The notes under the pieces: model-generated | Told to the model about the DNA's origin: nothing | Database searches by the model: none | What the model saw: only the letters and a program-made list of their open reading frames with translations | From: an uncultured Oscillibacter sp. | GTDB lineage: Bacteria > Bacillota > Clostridia > Oscillospirales > Oscillospiraceae | DNA length: 41,893 nt | Assembly: GCA_947244595.1 (NCBI GenBank) | Contig: CAMXKT010000006.1 | Location: 1-41,893 of the forward strand | Reading direction: 5' to 3' | Part shown: piece after piece, positions 24,682-26,615 of the stretch | How the letters are laid out: every line of letters begins with the position of its first letter | Position numbering within the stretch: position 1 is the stretch's first letter | Position numbers and translations under genes: made by a program

Positions 24682-26085
24682 ATGGACACCATCGCCGCCA
24701 TCGCCGCCGGGGGAGGGGCCCCCTCCGCCATCGGGGTAATCCGGGTCTCGGGGCCGGACTGCTTTGCCGTCTGCGGACAAATCTTCCGGGCCGCCCGGCC
24801 CTTTGAAGAGCTGGAGGCCCGGCGGATGGTCCTGGGAGAAATTCCCGACCGGGAGGGCCGGGTCCTGGACCGGGGGCTGGCGGTGCGCTTCCCCGGCCCT
24901 CACAGCTACACCGGGGAGGACTCGGCGGAGTTCCACTGCCACGGGTCCCCGATGGTCCTCCGGGAGGTGCTGGCGGCTCTCTTTGCCGCAGGGGCTCGGC
25001 AGGCGGGACCGGGGGAGTTCACGAAGCGGGCCTTTTTGAACGGGCGGCTGGACCTGACCCAGGCGGAGGCCGTCATCGACCTCATCGACGCGGAGACCGC
25101 CGCCGCCGCCCGGAACGCCGCCGCCCAGCTGGACGGGGGGCTCCGCCGGGTGCTGGAGCCCATCCAGGAAGCCCTGCTGGACGTGACCAGCCGGTTTTAC
25201 GCCGTGGTGGACTACCCGGACGAGGACATCCAGGACGCGGGGCCGGAGGAAATCGCCGCCACCCTGCGGCAAGCGGAGGGGCACCTGACGGCTTTGCTTG
25301 CCACCTGCAAACGGGGGAAGGTCCTCAAGCGCGGCGTGCGGACGGCCATCGTGGGCCTGCCCAACGCGGGGAAGTCCTCCCTGCTCAACGCCCTGGCGGG
25401 GTACGAGCGGGCCATCGTCACCGACATCCCCGGCACCACCCGGGACACGGTGGAGGAGTCCGTCCTCTGCGGCGGAGTGCTGCTGCGGCTCATCGACACG
25501 GCGGGCCTCCGGGAGACGGAGGACCAGGTGGAAAAGCTGGGGGTGGAGCGGTCCCGCCGGGCCATGGAGGAGGCGGAGCTGATTCTGCTGGTGAAGGACG
25601 GAGCTGTGGGGATCTGCCCGGAGAAACGGGCCTATCTGGAGGCGGAGGCCATTCTCCTGAACCAGGTGGCGGAGACGGGCAAGCCCTGGCTCTGTATCGA
25701 GTCCAAATGCGACCTCACCGGGCCCCACGCCTTTTCCCTGGGGCTCATTCAAAAGGACGCCAACAATCCCGCCGCCTGCCTCTGCGTGTCCTCCGTCACC
25801 GGCCAGGGCCTGGACAAGCTGGAGGAGGCCGTGGCCGCTCTGTTCCCCGCCGGAGAGGCGGGGGAGGCAGGGAGCCTGCTGACGGACCAGCGGCAGGAGG
25901 AGGCGGTTTCCCGGGCCCGGGCCGCCGTCCGCCGGGCGCTGGAGGCCCTGGAGGGCGGTCTGACCCCCGACGCCGCCCTGACGGACGCCGAAGAGGCCCT
26001 GGACGCCATTGGAGAGCTGACGGGCCGGACGGCCAAGGAGGAAATCGTGGAGCGGATCTTCTCCCGGTTCTGCGTGGGGAAGTGA
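24682..26085 (+). CDS. mnmE: tRNA U34 5-carboxymethylaminomethyl-modifying GTPase MnmE
   Basis: 467 residues, normal length. It works with MnmG to modify the wobble uridine of tRNAs using 5,10-methylene-THF/formyl-THF, FAD and GTP. The N-terminal folate-binding domain spans 1-120 (DTIAAIAAGGGAPSAIGVIR; TGEDSAEFHCHG). A helical domain and the inserted G domain from about 220 follow: G1 GLPNAGKSS 225-233, G2 PGTTRDT 250-256, G3 DTAG 272-275, G4 SKCD. The C-terminus is FCVGK, keeping the catalytic Cys of the FCIGK motif. AAAGGAG precedes the ATG. mnmG and rsmG, often adjacent, are not in the window. Confidence 0.97.
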   Translation: MDTIAAIAAGGGAPSAIGVIRVSGPDCFAVCGQIFRAARPFEELEARRMVLGEIPDREGRVLDRGLAVRFPGPHSYTGEDSAEFHCHGSPMVLREVLAALFAAGARQAGPGEFTKRAFLNGRLDLTQAEAVIDLIDAETAAAARNAAAQLDGGLRRVLEPIQEALLDVTSRFYAVVDYPDEDIQDAGPEEIAATLRQAEGHLTALLATCKRGKVLKRGVRTAIVGLPNAGKSSLLNALAGYERAIVTDIPGTTRDTVEESVLCGGVLLRLIDTAGLRETEDQVEKLGVERSRRAMEEAELILLVKDGAVGICPEKRAYLEAEAILLNQVAETGKPWLCIESKCDLTGPHAFSLGLIQKDANNPAACLCVSSVTGQGLDKLEEAVAALFPAGEAGEAGSLLTDQRQEEAVSRARAAVRRALEALEGGLTPDAALTDAEEALDAIGELTGRTAKEEIVERIFSRFCVGK

Positions 26086-26094
26086 AAATGACGC

Positions 26095-26124
26095 TTGCAT
26101 ATTCTGATCCGGCTGTGGTATAAT
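26095..26124 (+). promoter_or_regulatory. Promoter of the antitoxin-like RNA
   Basis: TTGCAT (26095-26100), 18 bases, consensus TATAAT (26119-26124). It starts 10 bases after the mnmE stop, and no open reading frame follows. Confidence 0.75.
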
Positions 26125-26130
26125 AACCAT

Positions 26131-26210
26131 AGCTGAAAGGTGGTCAGCATCCAAGGCGCTCACAAAAGGCGGACTCCCGGAGAGTGGCAGCTCTCCGGGA
26201 GTCTTTTTTT
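26131..26210 (+). ncRNA. Putative type I antitoxin RNA (about 80 nt)
   Basis: A promoter, about 40 bases of unstructured sequence, and a strong terminator define a small RNA with no ribosome site and no sizeable frame. Its 5' part (26136-26163) reads AAAGGTGGTCA, GCA, TCCAAGG, then CTCAC. This repeats, with a small gap, the antisense of the toxin mRNA start region at 26290-26319 (AAAGGTGGTCA, AGATA, TCCAAGG, then CTCAC). The RNA can therefore pair with the toxin start codon and approach its Shine-Dalgarno sequence. It also ends in the terminator shared with the toxin transcript. This is the layout of RNA II in Fst/par loci. Confidence 0.72.
26172..26210. terminator. Shared terminator at the convergent ends of the toxin mRNA and antitoxin RNA
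   Basis: GACTCCCGGAGAG (26172-26184), loop TGGCAG, CTCTCCGGGAGTC (26191-26203), then seven T on the plus strand. On the minus strand the hairpin is followed by CGCCTTTTG, a weaker signal. Both RNAs would carry complementary copies of this hairpin. Confidence 0.88.
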
Positions 26211-26214
26211 AGGC

Positions 26215-26310
26215 TTACTGTCCCTTGCGGTGCCGGTCAAGCCATTTGCAAATGTAGTAGGCAGCTACACTTGCCGCGACCGAGAGCAAAAAGGTGGTCA
26301 AGATATCCAA
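26215..26310 (-). CDS. Putative type I toxin: 31-residue hydrophobic membrane peptide
   Basis: Starts at TTG 26310 with GGAGGTG eight bases before it. The peptide has a short acidic start (MDILTTF), a membrane-spanning stretch LLSVAASVAAYYI, and a charged tail beginning CKWLD and ending in basic residues with KGQ. Length and layout match Fst/Ldr/TxpA-type toxins, which insert into the membrane. Peptides of this 'TFL.SV.A..V..Y.ICKWLD' type occur as unannotated small frames in gut Clostridia, from general recollection. It has its own promoter (26359-26387) and a convergent antisense-like RNA. Function as a toxin is inferred from this architecture, not shown. Confidence 0.75.
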   Translation of the reverse strand: MDILTTFLLSVAASVAAYYICKWLDRHRKGQ

Positions 26311-26358
26311 GGTCCTCACCTCCTCCCTGTTGCCAGTTTGGAGAGGGGCAGCACAGAC

Positions 26359-26387
26359 AGCATACCAGATTTCGACAGGGGTCGCAA
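26359..26387 (-). promoter_or_regulatory. Promoter of the toxin mRNA
   Basis: Minus strand: TTGCGA (26387-26382), 17 bases, TATGCT (26364-26359). The mRNA would have a leader of about 40 bases and be about 180-190 nt long to the shared terminator. Confidence 0.68.
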
Positions 26388-26431
26388 GGAGGGGTCTTGA
26401 AAAATATGTTTTTCAACCCCCCAAAATGTGG

Positions 26432-26615
26432 TTTACAAAACCGCGTCGTGGTGTTACAATAACCATTGCGAGCCGCCCGGCCCCGCCGGGCGGCCCCTGC
26501 TGTCAAAAGAATTTGACAGCAGGGGCAAGTTTTCAGAACCCGTGGGAAGTTCTGAAAACTGTAGATTTAAATGGTGCAGGAAACCCCTCCTGGGTTTCCC
26601 GCACACACCCTTCCT
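26432..26615 (+). promoter_or_regulatory. Promoter and multi-hairpin leader of the DUF1836-degV-prmA operon
   Basis: TTTACA (26432-26437), 17 bases, TACAAT (26455-26460). Four hairpins follow in a row. A: GCCGCCCGGC/GCCGGGCGGC (26472-26494). B: CCCCTGCTGTCAAA/TTTGACAGCAGGGG, 14 bp perfect (26494-26525). C: AGTTTTCAGAAC/GTTCTGAAAACT (26528-26560). D: GGAAACCC/GGGTTTCC (26579-26599). None has a T tract. A and B share boundary bases and compete at the edge. This fills the gap before the operon; no gene is visible in it. Confidence 0.65.

Follow-up and report, generated by a model that had tools for sequence, protein, structure and literature searches.

The window, i.e., the whole stretch of 41,893 nucleotides of DNA that was analyzed, carries mnmE at positions 24682-26085 of the plus strand (NF003661, above cut-off) and, on the other flank of the module described here, a DUF1836 gene (PF08876). 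The module consists of a putative toxin ORF and a small RNA gene on opposite strands. On the minus strand, the ORF (26215-26310) encodes a peptide of 31 residues, MDILTTFLLSVAASVAAYYICKWLDRHRKGQ, with TTG as the start codon (26308-26310) and with the Shine-Dalgarno (SD) sequence AGGAGG (26319-26324) at a distance of 8 nt, in agreement with the initial annotation, which had pointed to this frame, its start and its ribosome site. Its promoter-like site (26359-26387, minus strand) has a −35 box TTGCGA (26382-26387) and a −10 box TATGCT (26359-26364) separated by 17 nt, and the predicted toxin mRNA, of about 187 nt and with deduced ends, would extend over 26166-26354 of the same strand (fold z −2.7). 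On the plus strand, an antitoxin promoter-like site (26095-26124), with a −35 box TTGCAT (26095-26100) and a −10 box TATAAT (26119-26124) separated by 18 nt, precedes a predicted antitoxin RNA of about 80 nt (26131-26211), whose start was placed 7 nt past the −10 box and whose end is given by a hairpin and its T run. This RNA gene, which had been proposed together with its TATAAT promoter and its terminator, is confirmed as a set of sequence features, and its fold z of −4.5 is chiefly owing to the hairpin.

The promoter-like sites are convergent and are present in the window as sequence sites. As read from the sequence, both −10 boxes are extended, with TGG; among the 45 modelled loci, the toxin −10 was extended in 40, the program that picked these sites being one that rewards TG. 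A generic consensus promoter scan of the window reported neither the toxin nor the antitoxin promoter-like site and gave instead 26432-26460 on the plus strand and 26147-26120 on the minus strand. In relatives, a similar divergent ATTATA-xCA element with TGCAAG was seen by eye after the repeat. Separately, a block like TGGTTTACAAAACC followed by TACAAT was observed at 26420-26470, ahead of the DUF1836 gene, and also in the relatives compared; it overlaps the promoter-scan match TTTACA-17-TACAAT and may be an operator.

Both genes converge on one hairpin, as had been claimed. This shared bidirectional terminator hairpin (26171-26211, both strands) has arms of 13 bp (26172-26184 and 26191-26203) that are 100% complementary and is terminator-like in both directions, with a stronger T run on the plus side. 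The terminator scan of the window reported three sites against 1.5 expected by chance, and a bidirectional hairpin was also visible by eye in relatives. In addition, the 5′ part of the antitoxin RNA repeats the antisense of the toxin start, which the initial annotation had noticed and which was resolved into two blocks on the plus strand: block 1 (26131-26146, 16 nt) is 88% identical to 26285-26300, the partner being toxin codons 4-9, and block 2 (26149-26163, 15 nt) is 87% identical to 26305-26319, where the partner is the last SD base, the spacer, the start codon and codon 2. By this repeat comparison the antitoxin target region spans 26285-26319 of the minus strand. The repeat spacings are 154 and 156 nt, so that the RNA-RNA duplex, with a predicted energy of −45.4 kcal/mol, would carry a 2-nt offset mid-way.

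Conservation of the peptide and fit between antitoxin and toxin

An alignment of 48 peptides, i.e., the 54 distinct ones minus six near-copies, showed Met1, Ala13 and Trp23 to be invariant, it being noted that Met1 is written for every start codon and that the invariance, that of Trp included, is partly built in by the recruitment of members with profiles containing these residues. The script-chosen starts of the 54 distinct peptides were ATG, GTG and TTG in 24, 17 and 13 cases, respectively. A transmembrane helix was judged by eye from hydrophobicity, and the Trp is followed by one to eight residues of D, E, K, R or H in the 48 peptides. The motif [PDST]xxxG, which most toxins of the Fst/Ldr superfamily carry in the transmembrane segment, was strict in 24 of the 48 members; the window peptide reads S-x-x-x-S, with S and not G at position 14. 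Changes at codon positions 1, 2 and 3 numbered 251, 114 and 392, respectively, in 47 close pairs that are not independent of one another, a pattern which indicates that the peptide is selected as a protein. Lack of amino-acid conservation in homologous loci had been set beforehand as the result that would speak against the system; the aligned homologues showed the peptide to be conserved. The first codons are also constrained in part as RNA, since they overlap the repeats.

The fit between each antitoxin and its toxin was compared across loci. From 56 places, 53 had usable flanks (L010 lay at a contig edge, L060 had a short downstream region and L062 had no stop in range), and removal of 12 redundant near-copies left 41 loci. 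In these, the toxin start region scored on average 17.6 against its own downstream region, 8.1 against those of other loci (sd 1.7, highest 17) and 7.9 against shuffled sequences; for the window, its own repeat scored 20 vs. a mean of 7.9 across the other 40 loci. By alignment scores, no other repeat surpassed the own one in 38 of 41 rows and in 37 of 41 columns, the rows that failed being L059, which has no repeat, and L043 and L056, each surpassed by one other locus. Duplex energies gave the same picture. Within the source genome, the own duplex (−35.8 to −47.6 kcal/mol) was the lowest in 6/6 rows and 6/6 columns, and in a wider set this held for 36 of 42 rows and for 37 of 42 columns, with means of −37.6 for own and −19.2 for non-own pairs. 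Finally, when 70 toxin-linked antitoxins were confronted with 100 toxins, a set that took in phylum-wide and plasmid toxins, the own toxin was the best for 61 and among the top three for 66. Although the repeats are not the same from one locus to the next, the best partner of an antitoxin tends to be its own toxin.

An indel interrupts the repeats in 38 of the 41 loci, and their longest exact match measures 11 nt at the median and 17 nt at most. Such interrupted repeats seem unlike what recently copied DNA would show, and they would fit a duplex that is kept broken, perhaps to evade RNase III.

The toxin mRNA itself was modelled at 45 of the 56 places, the other 11 having no modelled promoter, hairpin or sufficient flank, and permutation tests of its pairing were done with 36 non-redundant loci of those 45. 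In the window, the 5′ end of the mRNA (26344-26353, minus strand) is predicted to form nine pairs with the last codons and the stop (26216-26225, minus strand), as the 5′ and 3′ arms, respectively, of an upstream helix. Over the 36 loci this 5′-end-to-stop pairing reached −17.6 for own arms vs. −14.0 for permuted ones, with none of 20,000 permutations as low, and the own pairing was within the best fifth in 22 loci. In a cruder alignment-score test of the same helix, own arms scored 8.4 and others 6.6, and the own arm was the best in only 4 of 41 rows. As modelled, the pairing would match the upstream helix of par. As for the ribosome site, the SD of the window is predicted to be 84% paired in the free mRNA, and mean SD pairing was 0.80 against 0.65 for the whole mRNA, which and not shuffled sequence was the term of comparison. 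The 5′ stem-loop had an energy of −11.7 for own vs. −10.6 for permuted sequences, with at least one permutation lower; occlusion of the SD by this stem-loop is plausible and weakly supported by the models.

A profile of the antitoxin revealed 93 distinct units, 70 linked to a toxin and 23 unlinked, the latter including contig-end cuts, reverse-strand terminator matches, one unit (L062) that belongs to a toxin without a nearby stop, and an Fst locus of genome G649. On contig 8 of G034 (L013/L024), two toxin-less units were found in tandem downstream of a complete module. For both, the adjacent toxin was the best of 100 (energies of −42.2 and −35.4, with z of −4.1 and −3.3, respectively); since best-of-100 z values as strong as these arise for 4.3 and 21.5% of shuffled units, the argument rests on adjacency. 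In the weaker unit a second toxin is close (−34.0 vs. −35.4), and what chiefly supports this unit is the position of its best toxin right beside it. The neighbor was also the best fit (−41.7) for a unit beside the L088 toxin. These toxin-less units could represent an extra dose of antitoxin or decayed modules. Another toxin-less antitoxin was observed next to a module on the gut phage scaffold MT837713.1 (L113, minus strand, ~1295-1421), its best partner being the chromosomal toxin L045 of G120. This pair (z −4.2) was rejected as a candidate because 3.2% of shuffles match it and 23 unlinked units were examined.

It could be thought that chromosomal modules and solo antitoxins make up an RNA-based immunity layer of mutually orthogonal antitoxins, which we consider unlikely. 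If this were true, a gut Clostridium would survive the loss of plasmids and phages with matching par-type toxins, or exclude them, and mobile elements would carry solo antitoxins against resident modules. In any case, the solo antitoxins would allow anti-addiction by type I RNA to be put to the test.

Genomic site, mobility and distribution

To place the module in its genomic context, 30 DUF1836 loci of the genus, drawn from 82 genomes with a match, were read. The DUF1836 gene adjoins mnmE in 20 of them; in the other 10, among them those of the close relatives G104 and G005, the available stretch does not include mnmE and the site is uninformative. The module is present at three of the 20 mnmE-DUF1836 sites (the window, G034 and G102), the gaps in the other 17 measuring 96-255 bases. 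In 80 named records, mostly of Oscillibacter and Oscillospiraceae, which hold the closest DUF1836 genes, the adjacency was found in 60 and the family in two; judging by the names of these records, the source is probably a gut bacterium akin to Oscillibacter. Genome G015, whose DUF1836 is 93% identical, has the post-module sequence directly after the mnmE stop, where the window has about 315 bp extra, and G033 (DUF1836 97%) is also without the module. Comparison of these sequences indicates that the module was gained or lost at the mnmE-DUF1836 site and, given the empty site in a close relative, that the unit of about 315 bp is an insertion after mnmE; it suggests that modules of this size enter intergenic sites. 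The unit absent from G015 (L120) covers approximately 26086-26400, with boundaries uncertain by a few bases owing to TGAAAA at both ends. The initial annotation, which had confined the locus to 26131-26387, was right in the coordinates, the lengths and the start codon, while the inserted unit extends slightly beyond those limits. Since the module is multicopy and is absent in close relatives, the mnmE-DUF1836 interval seems to be a place of insertion and not the sign of a functional link.

In G102 (L131) and G034 (L133), two different modules stand in tandem between mnmE and DUF1836, and the final ~115 bases of mnmE are repeated between them. The bodies of the modules differ there, whereas the copies of mnmE and the antitoxin promoters seem almost identical; the pattern suggests recombination or site-specific insertion at the 3′ end of mnmE. 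Two further observations concern incomplete structures. In G076 (L121), a lone CCCGGAGGG hairpin lies in the mnmE-DUF1836 region, where others carry the module; it could be a scar or simply the usual terminator of mnmE. In L004/L036 (~1318-1368) and L012 (1728-1778), a remnant peptide ending in KWLDEHNKG or KWLGEHNKG stands directly before an antitoxin-type promoter, and such remnants would correspond to a module that has decayed or been rearranged and is followed by a complete one.

The same comparison bears on another reading of the locus, namely a chance hydrophobic ORF beside the ordinary mnmE terminator with a coincidental repeat. Nothing but the lack of annotation speaks in its favor, and the recurrence of the layout with repeats that are diverged but match themselves, together with the empty site, already refutes it from the comparative data, so that its probability is practically nil.

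The peptide search revealed six copies in the source genome, an assembly of 1.96 Mb in 170 contigs that is 73% complete, and inspection of the flanks showed the hairpin and the start-region repeat at each of the six places. The five other copies adjoin genes for GAPDH and DnaX, PEPCK and a TetR regulator, ArgG (argininosuccinate synthase), a UvrD helicase and an HTH protein, and a PTS gene, and no prophage genes were found among the eight neighbors scanned within 2-3 kb around these copies. With the single peptide as query, 7 of 60 relatives gave a match, all of one genus; the wider spread was visible only with the alignment as query. The latter matched 11 of 86 genomes of the genus. In the order, 16 of the 295 genomes sampled had a match, from 9 of 149 genera, and in the phylum 14 of the 398 sampled, from 10 of 267 genera and also from other classes; the source genome is counted in all three cases. 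Up to eight peptide matches were found in a single genome (G298). Outside chromosomes, tblastn at E up to 10 gave 397 plasmid records, 329 of them from Enterococcus, where the matches inspected were weak (E 0.1 to 5), and 12 phage records, eight of which were from gut or rodent feces with E ≤ 0.008. At each of 14 plasmid and phage places inspected by eye and unscored, the peptide, the hairpin and the start-region repeat were present, the repeat of L106 being cut by the end of the record.

This distribution also helps to judge whether the peptide is a toxin at all. It might instead be a small membrane peptide with a regulatory or structural function that is controlled by the antisense RNA, the latter tuning its level, e.g., under stress, with no cell being killed. 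Copies do adjoin housekeeping genes, and chromosomal par homologues are described as having obscure functions, some of them with the antitoxin in large excess (PMC7472228). Against this, a multicopy and patchy presence (11/86 genomes of the genus), an empty site in a close relative and copies on small plasmids and in phage records are more in keeping with a selfish or addiction unit than with a host function; we regard a non-toxic role as very unlikely. The most likely role would be that of a self-maintaining mobile addiction unit that has repeatedly entered chromosomes.

Affiliation and proposed mechanism

The scans of the window peptide against Pfam and NCBIfam gave nothing above cut-off, and the Rfam gathering scan of the window reported tRNA only. 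Searched against 177,635 PDB sequences, the family profile had two matches at E up to 10, the first of them LdrD (E 0.054), in which P-V-I-A-G is aligned with S-V-A-A-G of the profile and the W of both coincide. The hhalign comparison with three Fst-type peptides gave, in the same register, a Prob of 82.6 and an E of 9.6e-6 that holds for that single comparison, and it must be considered that matches between short membrane peptides can arise from composition. The Fst model NF033608 matched 5 of the 48 members weakly and below its cut-off (best E 0.0037). Across the phylum, it had matches in 2 of 199 genomes, none over the cut-off, one of which overlaps a family match in G470 (18.0 bits vs. a cut-off of 26). 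PF13955 was found in none of 199 genomes of the phylum and was not among the 21 Pfam families matched by the 48 members. Ldr_toxin of Pfam matched six of the 48 (best E 0.025) as one of several weak Pfam matches, DUF2158 being more frequent (15/48) and DUF2798 stronger (best E 0.0012). The curated NCBIfam model matched most often was NF047374, a type I toxin of C. difficile, with weak matches in 22 of the 48 members (best E 6e-4); it scored 16.2 bits with the window peptide and at best 24.6 bits with ten plasmid and phage relatives, its cut-off being 60. The antitoxin nucleotide profile, on the other hand, also matched a locus of G649 (24.1 bits), the peptide of which scores 37.7 bits with NF033608 and exceeds its cut-off of 26; members of the family occur in G649 as well. 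On the G649 stretch L095, about 500 bases separate this canonical Fst locus (~1980-2180) from one of the family's members.

In attention to these matches, a convergent and unrelated type I family that merely resembles par, with the same RNA logic and an independent origin of the peptide, has to be considered. Its mechanism would overlap with that of the explanation preferred here and the two differ in descent. The members fall below the curated Fst cut-off and most often match the C. difficile model, which would suit a separate origin; against it, the upstream helix, the terminator, the repeats and the register of W and S-x-x-x-G coincide with Fst, and the antitoxin profile also picked up the G649 locus with its NF033608-passing peptide. 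Independent descent is rather unlikely, and the system is probably a divergent clade of the Fst/Ldr superfamily of par-type systems and not a member of NF033608. That the locus is a par/Fst-type type I toxin-antitoxin module is very probable. Computation established the layout of the DNA, the cognate pairing as a prediction and the conservation of the peptide. The recurrence across loci of promoters, terminator, repeats and 5′-end pairing supports the proposal, made in the initial annotation, of a chromosomal type I system of the par_pAD1 design in another lineage.

By analogy with the par family, from which transcription, the order of pairing, the block of translation and toxicity are extrapolated, the module would most likely work as follows. 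The minus strand would give an mRNA of ~187 nt for a single-span membrane peptide of 31 aa with a charged C-terminus, and the plus strand an antitoxin RNA of ~80 nt. Both would stop at one hairpin and so have complementary 3′ ends, and pairing would start at the terminator loops and spread to the repeats, where the 5′ part of the antitoxin would pair in two blocks offset by 2 nt. The resulting duplex would reach from the edge of the ribosome site over the start codon to codon nine, with translation being blocked. In the free mRNA, the 5′ end would pair with the end of the ORF and the ribosome site would probably be hidden in part by folding, so that this mRNA would be held back. If the antitoxin were lost or outpaced, the peptide would be made and might harm the membrane or cell division.

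The mechanism as such is already known. The clade is unnamed at the cut-offs of Pfam, NCBIfam and, for the window, Rfam, and no description of it was found in literature searches of titles and abstract openings; it is possibly covered by Fozo's Clostridium sequences. According to a 2019 review (PMC6563280), Fozo found in C. bolteae and C. asparagiforme sequences resembling Ldr/Fst or Fst, which are possibly the clade described here, and the same review describes validated type I modules in Clostridia as confined to C. difficile. The present data would extend the par/Fst design to a clade in gut Clostridia and in gut plasmids and phages, with six copies in one incomplete genome. Given that the copies in one cell differ in their repeats, they offer a natural test of orthogonality among short antisense pairs.

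Comparison with known systems

The closest model is par_pAD1 of the E. faecalis plasmid pAD1, with the toxin Fst and the transcripts RNA I and RNA II, which is described as having convergent promoters, a bidirectional terminator and two interrupted direct repeats over the toxin start, as well as an upstream helix, a stem-loop that hides the SD and a U-turn in the loop, the latter not universal within the par family (PMC7472228). The module of the window shares with it the convergent promoters, as sequence sites, the common terminator, the two direct repeats over the toxin start, the predicted 5′ upstream helix and a single-span peptide of about 30 aa with a charged tail. It differs in the peptide family, which has CKWLD and S-x-x-x-G/S/N/D instead of P-x-x-x-G, in its six chromosomal copies and in the length of the predicted antitoxin, ~80 nt vs. 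~40 nt reported for RNA II (PMC7472228). The chromosomal par_EF0409 and Fst-Sm and the L. rhamnosus plasmid system Lpt, in whose description the elements DR, UH and SL appear (PMC5608710), follow the same RNA logic and are Fst by their authors' assignment, whereas the clade described here lies below the cut-off of the Fst model. With regard to specificity, RNA II of pAD1 is reported not to protect against the EF0409 toxin mRNA, for which Weaver blames the differing repeats (PMC7472228). LdrD of enterobacteria has the peptide register found here, i.e., motif, Trp and charged tail, but the regulation of the ldr/rdl loci is described as more like that of hok/sok (PMC7472228). CD2517.1-RCd8 and other modules of C. 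difficile are, like the one described here, convergent pairs of peptide and antisense genes in Clostridia with mostly cognate specificity, and they differ from it in toxins of 34-53 aa with lysine-rich tails (PMC6563280).
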